Below are positions 5,713-54,206 of a DNA stretch of 54,439 nt, piece after piece (position 1 is the first letter of the stretch; the number at the start of each line of letters is the position of its first letter). The notes under the pieces were generated by a model. It was given only the letters and a program-made list of their open reading frames with translations. It was not told the origin of the DNA and searched no databases. The DNA is taken from assembly GCA_024681775.1 (NCBI GenBank), contig JAILAF010000095.1:1-54439 (forward strand), written 5' to 3'. The position numbers were made by a program, and so were the translations under genes. This stretch comes from Lachnospiraceae bacterium. GTDB lineage: Bacteria; Bacillota; Clostridia; Lachnospirales; Lachnospiraceae.

Positions 5713-6012
5713 GTCAAAAAATAAAACGCCCCTGACAGAAAACACTGTCAAGGACGAATAAGATTATCCGCGGTGCCACCTTGAATTCACGATTTCTCGT
5801 GCGCTTAGCAGGATACAAACATATCCCCGGCATATAACGTCAGCCTGCAACGTCGCAGAATACTCGGAGCCTTTCTGACCTCACCGGCCCCTTTGACTGC
5901 GCCCTCCGCGGTCCATTTGACACTGTGTTTCTCGCTTGCTTCTCATCATCGCAAACTCTCTGTACAGGCATCAATGCCTTTATCTCCGCTTCATCGGTTT
6001 AGCGTATTAAAT
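5713..6012 (-). promoter_or_regulatory. Trp-specific T-box leader with intrinsic terminator
   Basis: T-box leaders sense uncharged tRNA and switch between a terminator and an antiterminator. The minus strand at 5782-5765 reads AAGG then TGGCACCGCGGATA, matching the conserved T-box. It is followed by a terminator stem (5755-5728, GTCCTTGACAG paired with CTGTCAGGGGC, loop TGTTTT) and a T-rich tract at 5726-5714. A UGG-A triplet at 5915-5912 is a candidate Trp specifier codon, consistent with trpD immediately downstream. Stem I was not folded in detail, so the specifier assignment is an inference. Confidence 0.93.
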
Positions 6013-22505: not shown

Positions 22506-22520
22506 ACTTTTTGTCCTTGG

Positions 22521-22568
22521 TCTCAAAGAAATCCTCCTCATCCGAGCAAGCTCGATTCGGATGATTTC
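22521..22568 (-). repeat. Solitary copy of the P2 hairpin of the repeat family
   Basis: This 48-base stretch is repeated at 22694-22741 with a single mismatch. It contains TCATCCGA and TCGGATGA flanking the conserved GAGCTTGCTC core (minus strand). It lies between full element A and the SGNH-like gene and looks like a partial second copy. Confidence 0.8.
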
Positions 22569-22576
22569 GCAGGGTG

Positions 22577-22762
22577 TAATGATCCACACGGATTGCTCCG
22601 TTTCTTCGAAACTCACGCAATCCTGCAAAAACTCAGAATCCGCTGATTTCCCCGCTTCGCATGGAAATCGCTACTTCTTCGTTTTTGTTCGGGTCTCAAA
22701 AAAATCCTCCTCATCCGAGCAAGCTCGATTCGGATGATTTCCTTGATCCCCTTGGATCATTA
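22577..22762 (-). repeat. Dispersed structured element, copy A
   Basis: Closed by a 9-bp terminal inverted repeat (plus strand TAATGATCC at 22577, GGATCATTA ending at 22762). Internal hairpins: P2 at 22691-22750 with GAGCTTGCTC core; P3 at 22645-22669 (GATTTCC with GGAAATC); P5 at 22590-22623 (GGATTGC with GCAATCC, inner GTTTC-TTC-GAAAC). It lacks the P4 hairpin present in copies D and E. The stop codon of the MBOAT gene (22762-22760) is part of the terminal repeat. Confidence 0.85.
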
Positions 22763-36147: not shown

Positions 36148-37929
36148 TCAGGAAAGCTGCACGAACTGACTGTTGTAGAGTTCCTTGTAGAAGCCGTTCC
36201 GCTCCAGAAGCTCGGCATGCCTGCCCTGCTCCACGATATCGCCGTCCTTCATCACCAGGATCACATCCGCCTCCCGGATGGTGGACAGACGATGGGCCAC
36301 GATAAAGCTGGTCCTGCCCTGCATCATGTGGGTAAAGGCTTTCTGGATATTCACCTCCGTCCGGACGTCGATGGAGCTGGTGGCCTCATCCAGGATCAGC
36401 ATAGGAGGCAGGCAGAGCATCACTCTGGCGATACACAGGAGCTGCTTCTGGCCCTGGCTTAAGGAACCGCCGTCCTCTCCGATCTCGGTATCATACCCCT
36501 TCGGCAGCCGCATGATGAAATTGTGGGCATGGGCATTTTTCGCCGCCTCCACGATCTCCTCCAGGGGGGCGTCCGGCCGTCCGAAAGCAATGTTTTCCCG
36601 GATGGTCCCCTTCCGCAGCCAGGTCTCCTGCAGCACCATACCGTAGCTGCTTCTTAAGCTTCCTCTGGTCACATTCCGGATATCCGAATCTTCCACGCAC
36701 ACCGAACCGCCGATCACATCGTAGAAACGCATCAGCAGGTTGATGAGGGTGGTCTTGCCGCAGCCCGTGGGCCCGACGATGGCGATCTTCTGCCCCGGGG
36801 TCACATGCAGGTTCAGATCCCGGATCAAGGGCTTTTCGGGATCGTAGTAAAACTCCACGTCGTTAAAGTCCACTTTCCCCCTGGCATTTAACATCACCCG
36901 GGCATCGGGGGCATCCGCAGGCTCCGGCTCCGTATCGATGAGGTCAAAGATTCTCCCCGCACAGACGAAGGCATTCTGGAGCTCCGTCAGGACGCCGGAG
37001 ATCTCGTTGAAGGGCTTGGCATACTGGCTGGAATAGGCCAGGAAGCAGGACAGCTGTCCCACGGTGATGCCGCCGCGGATGGCGTAATATGCGCCGAAGA
37101 CCCCCACCCCGGCGTAGACCAGGGCATTGATAAAACGGGTGGAAGGATTCACCAGACTGGAGTAGAAAATCGCCTTCAGGGAAGCCGTTTGCAGACGCTT
37201 GTTGATCCGGTCAAAATCCTGTCTGGCCCTGTCCTGCATGGAAAAGGCCCGGACCAGCTTCTGGTTCCCCACCATCTCTTCGATGAAGGCGGTCTGCTCT
37301 CCCCGCTCCACGGATTGCTTCAGGAAGAATTCATGGGTGTGAACGGCGATGTAGCGGGCCACCAGGATCGACAGCGGGGTCAGGATCACCACCACCAGAG
37401 TGATGGGCACGTTGGTGACCAGCATAAATCCCAGGGTCCCCAGCACCGTCATCAATCCCGTAAAGAGCTGGGTAAATCCCATCAGGAGGCCATCCGCAAA
37501 GGTGTCCGCATCGGTGATGATACGACTCACCACATCCCCGGAGGGGTGGGCGTCCAGGTAGGCGATGGGCAGATTGTGCAGATGCTTCATGGCATCCTCA
37601 CGGATGTCCCGGACCACATGATAGGTCAGGTAATTGTTGCAGATGCTCATGATCCACTGGGCGATGGCGGTAATGCCCATCGTGATGCCGATGCGCAGAC
37701 AGATCTTCAGTATGTTCGCCATCCGCACCTGCCCGGGGCCCAGGAGTTCATCCACCGCATGGCCCGTAAAAATGGGGATGAGAAGCGTCAAAACCACTGT
37801 CAGTGCCGCCAGGAGCACGGACAGGATCAGGATGGGGATATAGTGTTTGATGTAAGTAAGAACGCGCTTCAGGATCCGGAGATTCTGTCCCTGATCGGGA
37901 AGGCGCTTCTTTTTGGGTTCTTCTGCCAT
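36148..37929 (-). CDS. ABC half-exporter with canonical ATPase site motifs
   Basis: A 593-residue protein with an N-terminal six-helix exporter domain (about 40-340) and a C-terminal ATPase. Walker A is VGPTGCGKTTLIN, the signature is LSQGQKQ and Walker B is MLILDEATSSID with the catalytic Glu. Paired with the exporter encoded just upstream, it should form a heterodimer of the multidrug type. The start at 37929 (MAEEPKKKR) follows AGGAG; the frame extends into the repeat array C but that part is rejected. Confidence 0.9.
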   Translation of the reverse strand: MAEEPKKKRLPDQGQNLRILKRVLTYIKHYIPILILSVLLAALTVVLTLLIPIFTGHAVDELLGPGQVRMANILKICLRIGITMGITAIAQWIMSICNNYLTYHVVRDIREDAMKHLHNLPIAYLDAHPSGDVVSRIITDADTFADGLLMGFTQLFTGLMTVLGTLGFMLVTNVPITLVVVILTPLSILVARYIAVHTHEFFLKQSVERGEQTAFIEEMVGNQKLVRAFSMQDRARQDFDRINKRLQTASLKAIFYSSLVNPSTRFINALVYAGVGVFGAYYAIRGGITVGQLSCFLAYSSQYAKPFNEISGVLTELQNAFVCAGRIFDLIDTEPEPADAPDARVMLNARGKVDFNDVEFYYDPEKPLIRDLNLHVTPGQKIAIVGPTGCGKTTLINLLMRFYDVIGGSVCVEDSDIRNVTRGSLRSSYGMVLQETWLRKGTIRENIAFGRPDAPLEEIVEAAKNAHAHNFIMRLPKGYDTEIGEDGGSLSQGQKQLLCIARVMLCLPPMLILDEATSSIDVRTEVNIQKAFTHMMQGRTSFIVAHRLSTIREADVILVMKDGDIVEQGRHAELLERNGFYKELYNSQFVQLS

Positions 37930-37959
37930 GGCAGTTCTCCTAAAAAAATTTGGGGGTGG

Positions 37960-38084
37960 GCGCTTTGCGCAAGGGGTCATTCGCAATCCGCTTCGCTACT
38001 TGCTCATGAAAAAGCGCTTTGCGCAAGGGGTCATTCGCAATCCGCTTCGCTACTTGCTCATGAAAAAGCGCTTTGCGCTTTTTC
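37960..38084 (-). repeat. Tandem array C of a 54-bp unit related to the dispersed element
   Basis: Two 54-bp units (37960-38013 and 38014-38067) are identical as read, followed by a partial third. The unit, on the minus strand, reads CATGAGCAAGTAGCG then AAGCGGATTGCGAATG, then ACCCCTTGCGCAAAGCGC, resembling the P3 flanks and P4 loop of copies D and E. A perfect 10-bp palindrome GAAAAAGCGC/GCGCTTTTTC with AAA loop (38062-38084) encodes the end of the upstream ABC protein. Confidence 0.9.
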
Positions 38085-51796: not shown

Positions 51797-52009
51797 TTTG
51801 ATCCTACGGACTGCTCCGTTGCTTCGCAACTCCCGCATTCCTACACTACAACAGACCGCTTTGCGCTCTGTTGTCATGCATTCGTAATCCGCTAATTTCC
51901 TGTCTTCGCAGGAAATTGCTGCTTACTCATGTTTGTACGGGTCATTTAATCAAAAATGCTCATTCATGCAAGCATGATTCCCATTTTTGATTAATGACCC
52001 TGGATCAAA
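51797..52009 (-). repeat. Dispersed structured element, copy D
   Basis: A 213-bp element closed by TTTGATCC/GGATCAAA. Internal hairpins: P2 at 51939-52000 (about 19 bp outer stem, inner CATGCTTGCATG); P3 at 51894-51917 (AATTTCCTG/CAGGAAATT); P4 at 51848-51874 (ACAACAGA/TCTGTTGT); P5 at 51808-51841 (inner GTTGC-TTC-GCAAC on the plus strand). It begins directly after the apt stop codon and ends about 60 bases before relA. Confidence 0.9.
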
Positions 52010-52534
52010 TCACTTCCCGGGATAAACGATCGCGGAGAACAGAGGGATGTCTCCCAGCTTCTCCTTGCCCTTCAGTCCGGCCAGCTCCATCAGCACGCAT
52101 ACGCCGACCACCTTGCCTCCCAGGGACTCAATGAGCTCCACCATGGCCTGGGTGGTACCGCCGGTTGCGATGAGGTCATCCACGATCAGCACCTTCTGAC
52201 CGGGCTTTATGCTGTCCTTGTGCATCTCGATGGTCGCGGTGCCGTACTCCAGATCGTAGGTCTTCTCCACCGTCTCACGGGGGAGCTTGCCCTTCTTGCG
52301 GATCAGCACAAAAGGCTTGTGATTGTTGTATGCCAGAGGAGTTCCGAAGATAAATCCTCTGGACTCGGGGCCGACAACCACGTCATAATCCAGACCGTCG
52401 ATGAGCTTCTGCATGCTTTCGATGGCCATATGTAAGCCATCCGCATCCTGCAGAACACTGGTCACATCGCGGAAAATGATCCCCGGCTCGGGGAAATCGG
52501 GAATGCTCACTACATACTCTTCAAGTTTCTTCAT
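52010..52534 (-). CDS. apt: Adenine phosphoribosyltransferase
   Basis: Salvages adenine to AMP using PRPP. The 174-residue chain has PEPGIIFRDVTSVL, VGPESRGFIFG, RKKGKLPRETV and the PRPP loop VLIVDDLIATGGT. The start at 52534 follows AAAGGA by six bases. The adjacent relA is a common neighbour in Bacillota. The 130-base gap upstream has two small GC hairpins (CTGCCG/CGGCAG and GACCGC/GCGGTC). Confidence 0.96.
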   Translation of the reverse strand: MKKLEEYVVSIPDFPEPGIIFRDVTSVLQDADGLHMAIESMQKLIDGLDYDVVVGPESRGFIFGTPLAYNNHKPFVLIRKKGKLPRETVEKTYDLEYGTATIEMHKDSIKPGQKVLIVDDLIATGGTTQAMVELIESLGGKVVGVCVLMELAGLKGKEKLGDIPLFSAIVYPGK

Positions 52535-52665
52535 ATCGGTTCCTTTCCGCATCCTGTCCGATGCTTCCGTCCTTCTTCCGGCGTGCCGCTTCCCTGACCG
52601 CTTTCCGCGGTCCGCAGCGCACCCCGTCCTTTTTGAACCAGGTACCTGCCGCTTTCGGCAGCTTC

Positions 52666-53298
52666 TTACAGTTCCTTGTCTATGGATTCACTGCTCTCTT
52701 CCCCGGCGGATGCCTCCTCCGGCTTCACCTCCGCAGCTGCCGCCACCACTTCCTCGCTCTTCTTCCACTCTCTGGAGAAAAACCGGGTGGAAAGCAGGTC
52801 CGTCACGCCGCTGAAGATCAGGCCCACGCCCAGGGCTCTCAGCAAAACCACGGCCGTTGTAAAGGGATTTGCCACCAGTATGGCACCCAGGATCAGGTTG
52901 ATCACAGCCACCACCAGAAGGCGTACCCAGGACTTCGAGTCCATGCGTTTTAAGTCGATGGCGTTCTGCAGCTTGATGCAGCCGCTGATCATCACCAGGA
53001 TCCCCAGGCACAGAGGCACCATGGAGATCACCGTCTCCCATTTCAGGATCACGATGATGCCCAGCAGGATGGCCACCAGACCGTGGAGAAAATCGTTCCG
53101 GAAATAGTTGATCTTCACATCCCGGATCAGGTAATTGATGACGAAGACAGCTCCGCCCACGATGCAGGCACCGCCCACGATGTAGATCAGGAGCTTCAGC
53201 ATGTCCTCCGGCATGATGATGGCCACCAGGCCCACCACGATATAGCACACGGAGGCAATGTAAGCGCCGGTCCTTAAGTTTTTCTGTGTTTTGTCCAT
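52666..53298 (-). CDS. DUF308 (HdeD-like) membrane protein
   Basis: A 210-residue protein with six predicted membrane helices in three pairs, as in the DUF308/HdeD family; function is unknown. A charged C-terminal tail follows (EVKPEEASAGEESSES). AAAGGAG lies six bases before the ATG. No close functional link to its neighbours is evident. Confidence 0.85.
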   Translation of the reverse strand: MDKTQKNLRTGAYIASVCYIVVGLVAIIMPEDMLKLLIYIVGGACIVGGAVFVINYLIRDVKINYFRNDFLHGLVAILLGIIVILKWETVISMVPLCLGILVMISGCIKLQNAIDLKRMDSKSWVRLLVVAVINLILGAILVANPFTTAVVLLRALGVGLIFSGVTDLLSTRFFSREWKKSEEVVAAAAEVKPEEASAGEESSESIDKEL

Positions 53299-53361
53299 AC
53301 GCAGCTCCTTTGCGGATTCTTCAAACGATGCAACGGATCACCCCGCTGCGTCGCATCATTC

Positions 53362-53402
53362 CTAAAAAAGCCACAAGAGGGCACTCCCAACGGAAAGCCC
53401 TC
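53362..53402 (-). terminator. Intrinsic terminator after the SEC-C protein gene
   Basis: Minus strand GAGGGC (53402-53397) pairs with GCCCTC (53382-53377); an inner TCC/GGA extends it. The sequence TTGTGGCTTTTTT follows. It lies about 10 bases after the stop of the gene at 53412. Confidence 0.7.
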
Positions 53403-53411
53403 CTGAATTCT

Positions 53412-53918
53412 TTACGCCTTTTTACCGCAGCACTTTTTATACTTCTTGCCACTGCCGCAGGGGCAGGGATCATTGGGATAAACCTTCGTTTCCTTGACGA
53501 TGGTGGTAGATCTCTTCTGCTCTTTGTAGAGCTCCTTGCGGGTTTCCTCGTCAAAGATGGCATCCCACTCAGGCAGGTTGTACAGCCAGTCTGCGCCGGC
53601 AGCCACCATGTTCTTGTACAGAAGGGGCTTATCGATTTCGATGCGGACCTCGGTGTCCTCCTCCATCTCCTCGATGGGGTTGGGAGTAACCAGGCTATCA
53701 TTGATGCCGTCCAGGAAGCCGGTCATCTCCATCAGGGAGAGCTCGTACTTCTCTGCCAGCTCCTTCACGGTGCCGTTGACGACCTCGTCGGGATTCTTCA
53801 GCAGCTTCTCGTATACGCCTTTCTCCTTGAGAAAGTAAACATTCCAAAGCTTCTCCAGCTTCTCTCTGCTTTCATTCTCGTTGTAGGCGATGTCTTTCCA
53901 TTGATCCAGTAATGCCAT
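53412..53918 (-). CDS. SEC-C motif protein of unknown function
   Basis: A 168-residue, mostly helical acidic protein ending in a SEC-C zinc-binding motif: [20 protein letters not shown]. This motif in SecA binds SecB and ribosomes, but here it stands alone with an uncharacterised N-terminal region ([13 protein letters not shown]). The start at 53918 has AAGGACGAGAAG upstream. It is preceded by structured element E and a strong promoter, so its mRNA would carry a leader of about 250 bases. Confidence 0.88.
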
Positions 53919-53952
53919 TTTCTTCTCGTCCTTTATATCTTTATTCTTCTTT

Positions 53953-54166
53953 GTTGATACCACGAATTGCTTCGCAGCTTCGCTGCTTTCGCACTTCTAC
54001 AGTACAACAGACCGCTTTGCGCTCTGTTGTCATGCATTCGCAATCCGCTAATTTCCTGCTTTCACAGGAAATTGCTACTTGCTCACGCTTGTACGGGCCA
54101 TTCAAACAAAGATGCTCGTTTATGCAAGCATAACTCTCATCTTTGCTTTTTGTCCCTTGTATCAAC
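53953..54166 (-). repeat. Dispersed structured element, copy E, in a transcribed leader
   Basis: A 214-bp element closed by GTTGATAC/GTATCAAC. Internal hairpins: P2 at 54095-54155 (core TATGCTTGCATA, outer CAAAGATG/CATCTTTG); P3 at 54050-54073; P4 at 54004-54030; P5 at 53964-53997 (inner GCAGC-TTC-GCTGC on the plus strand). It aligns with copy D over its whole length. The promoter at 54178-54206 would start RNA about 5 bases before the closing stem. Confidence 0.9.
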
Positions 54167-54177
54167 ATATAGACGGT

Positions 54178-54206
54178 ATTATATACGAAACAACGCCGTT
54201 TTTCAA
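54178..54206 (-). promoter_or_regulatory. Near-consensus promoter driving element E and the SEC-C gene
   Basis: Minus strand TTGAAA (54206-54201), 17-base spacer, perfect TATAAT (54183-54178). The predicted start near 54171 lies just upstream of element E. Confidence 0.88.

Follow-up and report, generated by a model that had tools for sequence, protein, structure and literature searches.

The window analysed here is a stretch of 54,439 nucleotides (nt) from a Lachnospiraceae bacterium (assembly GCA_024681775.1, contig JAILAF010000095.1, positions 1 to 54,439), which carries on its minus strand three copies, D, E and A, of a dispersed and hairpin-rich intergenic element. These repeats are copies of the Clostridiales-1 RNA family (RF01699), a family that is most likely a non-autonomous transposable element similar to the miniature inverted-repeat transposable elements (MITEs) and built of a chain of hairpins. 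All three copies lie above the gathering score of 48 bits for this family when searched with cmscan (A 120.1, D 77.8 and E 77.4 bits), the match in E being limited to positions 53995-54164 because hairpin P4 takes the place of P5 in the alignment. In this regard, a previous sequence-only reading of the window had proposed either a new structured RNA family, on condition that no described Rfam family matched, or a MITE-like element with terminal inverted repeats. The matches to RF01699 therefore remove the novelty of the RNA family. The MITE-like alternative is supported for the family by the termini and their target duplications, by variants of different size, and by lineage-specific copies along with empty sites; in the window's own genus, the copies pair their ends through P1 and show neither the outer right terminus nor an excess of duplications. 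The same reading did not recognise any known riboswitch class, and RF01699 is indeed the sole Rfam match at the three sites, so that a riboswitch or T-box identity for D, E and A was discarded.

The family was already known, and it is its mobile-element nature that is probably new. Rfam files RF01699 as a small RNA (sRNA), and at least one machine-learning study places it in the sRNA class as well (PMC7682815). In the original description (Weinberg et al. 2010, PMC2864571), a table gives Clostridiales-1 as an RNA with 'y' (probably) and as cis-regulatory with 'n' (probably not), with Clostridiales and human gut as its source, and the main text contains neither 'mobile' nor 'many copies'. A search of the open PMC literature found no paper naming Clostridiales-1 a mobile element.

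Termini, target duplications and dispersal

The anatomy of a transposon is found in genera other than that of the window. In 40 stretches fetched from genomes G068, G141, G057, G032, G132 and G223, the flanks diverge immediately outside the element, and similarity extends ~28-36 nt beyond the 3' end of the Rfam match, the extension starting with GGTATCA and continuing into a short hairpin, of which GGGGCAAAATACCTTTTGACCCCTACATC is an example. At its far right the element repeats its left end in inverted orientation, both termini having the form TGAT-N4-GGGTCAAAAGG (right ends in G141 and G057 deviate from it at one or two places), and this outer right terminus occurs within 80 nt after 38 of the 40 copies. 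Scanning these six genomes, which were chosen for their copies, with up to two mismatches gave 221 terminus matches in G068, 157 in G223, 106 in G057, 39 in G141, 33 in G032 and 19 in G132, in comparison with 0-3 for a reversed-pattern control. At one mismatch, G068 has 191 matches, two per full copy, versus 0 for the reversed pattern, and a looser pattern gave 20 versus 6 in G132 and 13 versus 4 in G220. Altogether, terminal inverted repeats are present at both ends in G068, G223, G141, G057 and G032, and in some copies of G132 and G220.

Moreover, the flanking 7-mers are identical in 38 of 73 distinct terminus pairs and matched at six or more positions in 47 of them, against 4.0 and 11.4 with shuffled flanks as a control. 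For this count the right end with the best 7-mer was taken where several were possible; when only the nearest right end was allowed, the numbers were 37 and 46 of 73, versus 4.1 and 11.1. A separate set comes from a scan that gave at least 120 named loci, of which 80 were examined and 67 used (13 were omitted as belonging to G068, G223 or G141): 10 of its 24 pairs are identical versus 0.5 expected, and 11 are matched at six or more positions versus 2.1. These target duplications measure 7-8 nt, are AT-rich, mostly ATWWWAT, and flank about half to two thirds of the copies in the other genera.

The element itself measures ~185-260 nt in these genera, and it is accompanied by smaller derivatives of 38-130 nt, none of them with a transposase gene. 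Derivatives of 71 nt, 130 nt and near 40 nt carry, by eye, target duplications of their own, so that the mobile unit seems to be defined by nothing more than its termini. Among other forms seen, a terminus pair 352 nt long with identical flanking AAATAAT (L317:6024-6375) represents another size class, and a 258-nt form of G223 (L160-L162, L164, L165) has a different, GGCGCC-rich extra hairpin between P3 and P5.

The window's own genome holds 27 RF01699 matches, 21 of them over the cut-off. Within the genus, 28 of 31 genomes match (own included), the number per genome ranging from 0 to 27, as do 112 of the 200 genomes (own included) of a draw from the whole family, in which no more than 13 candidates were scored per genome and many genomes had at least 13; no match was found in any of 14 control genomes. 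Rfam matches over the cut-off are ~120-220 nt long and therefore too short for a transposase gene, and the elements read contain none. The 13 copies fetched from G068 hardly differ among themselves and occupy unrelated sites, as is typical of recent amplification. Short size, lack of a transposase and many dispersed copies are all present, and in the other genera examined the element has the features that define a MITE. Tandem arrays of the element were also seen, at L186 and L187 of G068 with a period of ~146 nt and at L197/L271 of the sister species G008.

The window's genus contributes occupied and empty sites. The spacer between apt and relA that holds copy D measures 269 nt here and 9-97 nt, with D absent, in all 26 genomes of the genus where it was measured (among 30 others, apt was matched in 27 and the relA start as well in 26). 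Copy A is full here, truncated in G008 and absent from G013, and copy E is full here and truncated in G008. For 8 further own copies, a flank search located all 8 sites in G008, three of them cleanly empty (2-8 nt between the flanks) and five with remnants of 39-68 nt. The L005 site is empty in both G008 and G013. By parsimony D, A and L005 are gains, and L010 and L013 may be either gains or losses. For the 21 full copies of the own genome, G008 has, as judged by eye, an empty site in 4 cases, a shortened or truncated copy in 10 and a full-length one in 7.

The hairpin chain and its copies in the window

Both sequence and folds bear out that D, E and A share one order of parts on the minus strand, as described before. 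Their predicted minimum free energies (-88.2 kcal/mol for D, -86.9 for E and -79.5 for A) correspond to z-scores of -9.2, -8.1 and -8.3, and none of 200 dinucleotide shuffles per copy folded as well. The arms of the closing stem P1 pair as TTTGATCC/GGATCAAA in D, GTTGATAC/GTATCAAC in E and TAATGATCC/GGATCATTA in A. Identity between D and E amounts to 81% over 217 nt, and A lacks P4.

For covariation, 34 chosen copies were aligned, 28 from the window's genus and 6 from other genera, omitting copies with P4 such as D and E. RNAalifold gives two-sided changes in 31 of 34 pairs, and with P1 included 37 of 40 pairs show change on both sides; 95.5% of the cells are paired, in comparison with 34.8-42.6% when the partners are slid, and none of 500 shuffles attains even one of the five measures used. 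The family covaries strongly, closing stem included: all six P1 pairs counted covary, confirming that paired bases change together there, and P1 is paired in 86.5% of the cells, below most other helices.

Hairpin P4, whose core in D and E is ACAACAGAGCGCAAAGCGGTCTGTTGT, is a removable 31-nt module. Exactly the 31 nt holding it are missing in the G008 orthologues of two other own copies (L017/L195 and L019/L199) and in the remnant of E, and the reverse case is seen in L270/L011, with P4 in G008 and not in the own genome. The hairpins counted earlier (up to four) are real, with the amendment that P4 is gained and lost separately and does not belong to the basic parts. A pattern search for P4 matched 15 places in G000, 9 in G008, 1 in G005 and none in G024, and the reversed pattern matched none. 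Many of these places are external to the element and belong to another dispersed repeat with two hairpins, GAATAAGCCC...GGGCTTATTC and then ACAATAGAGCGCGAAGCGGTCTATTGT (also given as ACAATAGAGCGC...), which was observed in G008 and the own genome (L242-L252, L255, L259, L260). One example is located within a Clostridiales-1 copy (L243, at the same place as L018). The second hairpin of this repeat resembles P4, with paired changes.

Table 1. Copies of the Clostridiales-1 element, their parts and associated features in the window
Feature	Position	Strand	Context or basis
Copy D, full Clostridiales-1 (RF01699) element with P4	51797..52009	-	apt-relA spacer, immediately behind the stop codon of apt
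D, P1 left arm TTTGATCC	52002..52009	-	fold
D, P2 hairpin with GCTTGC loop	51939..52000	-	fold
D, P3 compound hairpin	51879..51931	-	fold
D, P4 hairpin core, part of the 31-nt module	51848..51874	-	fold; module present or absent among orthologues of other copies
D, P5 hairpin	51808..51841	-	fold
D, P1 right arm GGATCAAA, without an outer right terminus after it	51797..51804	-	fold, terminus scan
Copy E, full element with P4	53953..54166	-	putative 5' untranslated region (UTR) of the SEC-C protein gene
E, P2 hairpin	54095..54156	-	fold
E, P3 hairpin	54031..54091	-	fold
E, P4 hairpin core	54004..54030	-	missing in the orthologous remnant of sister species G008
E, P5 hairpin	53964..53997	-	fold
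Copy A, full element without P4	22577..22762	-	sequence, Rfam match, fold
A, P2 hairpin	22691..22751	-	fold
A, P3 hairpin	22626..22687	-	fold
A, P5 hairpin, ends approximate	22589..22625	-	fold
Promoter-like TTGAAA-17-TATAAT, 11/12 consensus	54178..54206	-	last base 12 nt before the start of E
Further copy of the larger part of the P2 hairpin of A	22519..22568	-	98% identity over 50 nt, repeat family D15
Two identical tandem 54-nt units with P3 remnant CATGAGCAAGTAGC...GCGGATTGCGAATG	37960..38067	-	boundary of two ABC-transporter genes

The interval 51797-54166 comprises two real copies, D and E, with three genes between them, which encode a phosphoribosyltransferase (read as apt), a DUF308 protein and a SEC-C protein. 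The promoter-like site near E is a consensus match only, three such sites occurring in the region against 1.6 expected. The first three bases of A (22760-22762) are the TAA stop codon of the upstream MBOAT gene, and by eye the first bases of the element apparently give the stop codon of the upstream gene in L001, L208, L197 and L198 too. The additional P2 hairpin near A is a partial duplication downstream of it, 173 nt off, and the first of the two 54-nt units overlaps the start of the open reading frame 36148-37986. A T-box leader at 5747-6003 on the minus strand, the sole T-box match in this genome, scores 79.2 bits, below its gathering score of 93.

A proposed mover in trans and the constraint on the fold

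The proposed movement would be driven by a transposase acting in trans on the termini, for which an IS1182-like DDE enzyme is the best candidate, although a tentative one. The candidate comes from a 654-nt unit in G220 (L118:1501-2154) with ends TGATTAGGATGTCAAAAGG and GGATTAGGGTGTCAAAAGA and flanks CTATTAT/CTATTAT, which encodes a short piece with VADGAYSG. Searches of this fragment in Pfam, NCBIfam and PDB gave no family and one chance-level PDB match. Its one relative in a phage collection (48.6% over 37 residues; MT838951.1, L433) lies beside a broken gene that matches Pfam DUF772 (40.6 bits, cut-off 23.1) and has weak, partial IS1182 matches (NCBIfam NF033551) of 43.7 and 33.7 bits, versus a cut-off of 270 and with an IS5 model close behind. 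With an IS1182-like transposase piece of L433, the L118 fragment shares 47.5% identity over 40 residues. In L433 a terminus, TGATGTTAGGGTCAAAA, lies ~415 nt after the second transposase piece, the left end being off the contig, and a CCTTGAAAA motif is found 45-50 nt inside all three ends of L118 and L433. In comparison with the IS1182 family, L118 offers related termini and the same kind of 7-mer repeat, and transposase pieces are found at L118 and L433, but the relation to the element is by termini only, and the profile match is far below the family cut-off.

Other partners and vehicles were considered and rejected. ISL3 was rejected as a present partner, though it may have been there in the past: its transposase reached E <= 0.001 in two of nine high-copy genomes and the cut-off in one of the nine, and was not found in G068. 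As the autonomous element, a 1.58-kb terminus pair of G132 was discarded, since its two ends are separate and enclose a transporter-like gene, and the unpaired termini of G223 were discarded as transposon ends, many of the 19 read belonging to decayed copies, with no transposase recognised by eye. Spread by viruses was discarded as well: the two exact terminus matches in viral contigs are both in the same stretch of sequence. On the other side, relatives are present in 13 records of the phage collection, unannotated human faecal contigs that may be bacterial, and in 1 plasmid.

Several results weigh against a MITE-like nature, either of the window's copies or as a full account of the family. 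Among 49 copies of the window's genus, none has the outer right terminus within 80 nt, and the shared flanking repeats have a mean of 3.45 versus 3.42 when shuffled (six or more in 3 copies versus 1.6); there is no GGGTCAAAAGG within one mismatch in the window. Pairs matched at six or more of seven positions were 1 of 2 in G132 and 0 of 1 in G220. No complete autonomous partner was found, and L118 was picked out from 14 long terminus pairs, among which it alone has matching 7-mers. Moreover, inner G.U pairs outnumber their antisense equivalents by 50:17 in the 49 genus copies (binomial p ~7e-5, kinship uncorrected) and by 34:10 in 40 copies of other genera, relatedness ignored. In six intact orthologous pairs the element shows 30 differences in 1015 positions, against 141 in 1704 upstream and 32 in 222 over the 45 nt next to it downstream, where five pairs were counted, the pairs having been chosen as intact and L018/L196 cut to its last 143 nt. 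Neutral relics would not change less than spacers, and there may be an RNA-level constraint on some copies.

Given the lack of outer right termini and of a duplication signal in the genus, it is by homology that the transposon anatomy is extended to the window's copies. End-to-end pairing in this genus is limited to P1; in other genera the right terminus lies ~28-36 nt beyond P1. The claim for D, E and A rests on family membership, on the shared left end (for instance TGATACAAGGGTCAAAAG in the own copy L014) and on the empty sites; the copies of this genus are either an older form having lost the right end, or they move otherwise. Movement without a DDE transposase, for example by recombination between copies and with the duplications as a coincidence of AT-rich sequence, would accord with the genus lacking duplications and with the partial tandem arrays (L186; L197/L271). 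It appears highly improbable in view of the 38 identical 7-mers in 73 pairs, when shuffled flanks of the same genome give 4.0, and of the 10 in 24 versus 0.5 in the separate set.

The constraint on the stems admits more than one explanation. Their G.U share is 2.4% of the element's pairs (52/2144), in comparison with 13.4% in shuffles, 11.9% in five transfer RNAs and 16% in one T-box leader, and it is low on either strand (2.4% and 1.7%), so the stems are near-perfect inverted repeats. A DNA-level process, such as template-switch correction of palindromes or hairpin recognition, could keep them so without selection on the RNA, and it would also fit one-sided changes being rare next to two-sided ones. 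Two observations make this explanation improbable: inner G.U pairs outnumber A.C 1x1 mismatches by 50:8 in the same folds; and among the 329 base pairs of five intact orthologous pairs 315 are unchanged, 4 change to or from G.U, 10 are broken and none is compensated. From the antisense ratios given above it follows that the named strand is favoured. All 11 aligned orthologous pairs gave, for 645 base pairs, 518 unchanged, 22 one-sided, 19 two-sided and 86 broken; since alignment across deletions is unreliable, only the five intact pairs were used and the 19 two-sided changes dropped. The opposite explanation, that Clostridiales-1 is a functional structured RNA (an sRNA or an element of messenger RNA, mRNA) multiplied in genomes, with an ancient or incidental mobility and a fold kept by selection, draws on the strong covariation, on both G.U ratios, on the slow change of intact orthologues and on the position of E directly after a promoter-like site. 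We hold it unlikely, given the termini and target duplications of other genera, the sister species, where 10 of the 21 own copies have a shortened counterpart and 4 have none, the lack of compensation in all 14 changed base pairs, 10 of them broken, and a G.U share well under that of shuffles and known RNAs.

Both natures may also have combined, the MITE spreading first and a minority of settled copies being later co-opted as mRNA elements (a processing site, an attenuator or a stabiliser). This seems quite possible, if somewhat short of probable: the fate of the copies in the sister species is bimodal, with 7 of 21 full-length, six of them measured as slow-changing, and 14 shortened or absent, and there is a parallel in bcr1-3, described as MITE-like and often part of UTRs, with bcr3 correlated with mRNA decay (PMC3446304), while on the other side stand only six pairs, selected for being intact. 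The results pull both ways, and we take Clostridiales-1 for a mobile element of which some copies are kept and whose hairpins are of importance on one strand. Its copies would be transcribed with the neighbouring genes and fold as hairpins in the mRNA, and some settled copies may be kept for these hairpins. A bolder and rather doubtful extension is that the spread or survival of the element depends on one strand folding into a chain of exchangeable hairpins, with modules entering and leaving between P3 and P5. The stems would be held near-perfect, and settled copies at the ends of genes would in some cases work as mRNA elements; the Clostridiales-1 'sRNA' would then be the folded strand of a mobile element.

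If the MITE-like nature of the family is true, the sequences that are labelled as RNA genes and are mobile DNA number from one to possibly a hundred in many genomes of the Lachnospiraceae, and covariation alone fails to separate RNA genes from hairpin-rich mobile DNA. Moreover, sister species with full, shortened and empty sites would be a ready system to study the effect of a hairpin chain at gene ends on the mRNA. Among known systems, D, E and A share the host group and the fold of Clostridiales-1 RF01699, whose model stops at P1 and omits the outer hairpin and right terminus present in other genera. RU/ERIC and Correia are likewise short MITE-like intergenic mobile sequences, in other hosts and with other termini and target duplications. 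The nearest parallel is given by bcr1-bcr3, known from the Bacillus cereus group and described as MITE-like; these repeats are 100-400 base pairs long, dispersed between genes and often located in UTRs or operon spacers (PMC3446304, PMC6542083). Clostridiales-1 is alike in being dispersed and MITE-like, whereas bcr1, described as limited to the B. cereus group, has a mobility tied to a TTTAT motif, and Clostridiales-1 shows 7-8 nt ATWWWAT duplications and GGGTCAAAAGG termini in the Lachnospiraceae.

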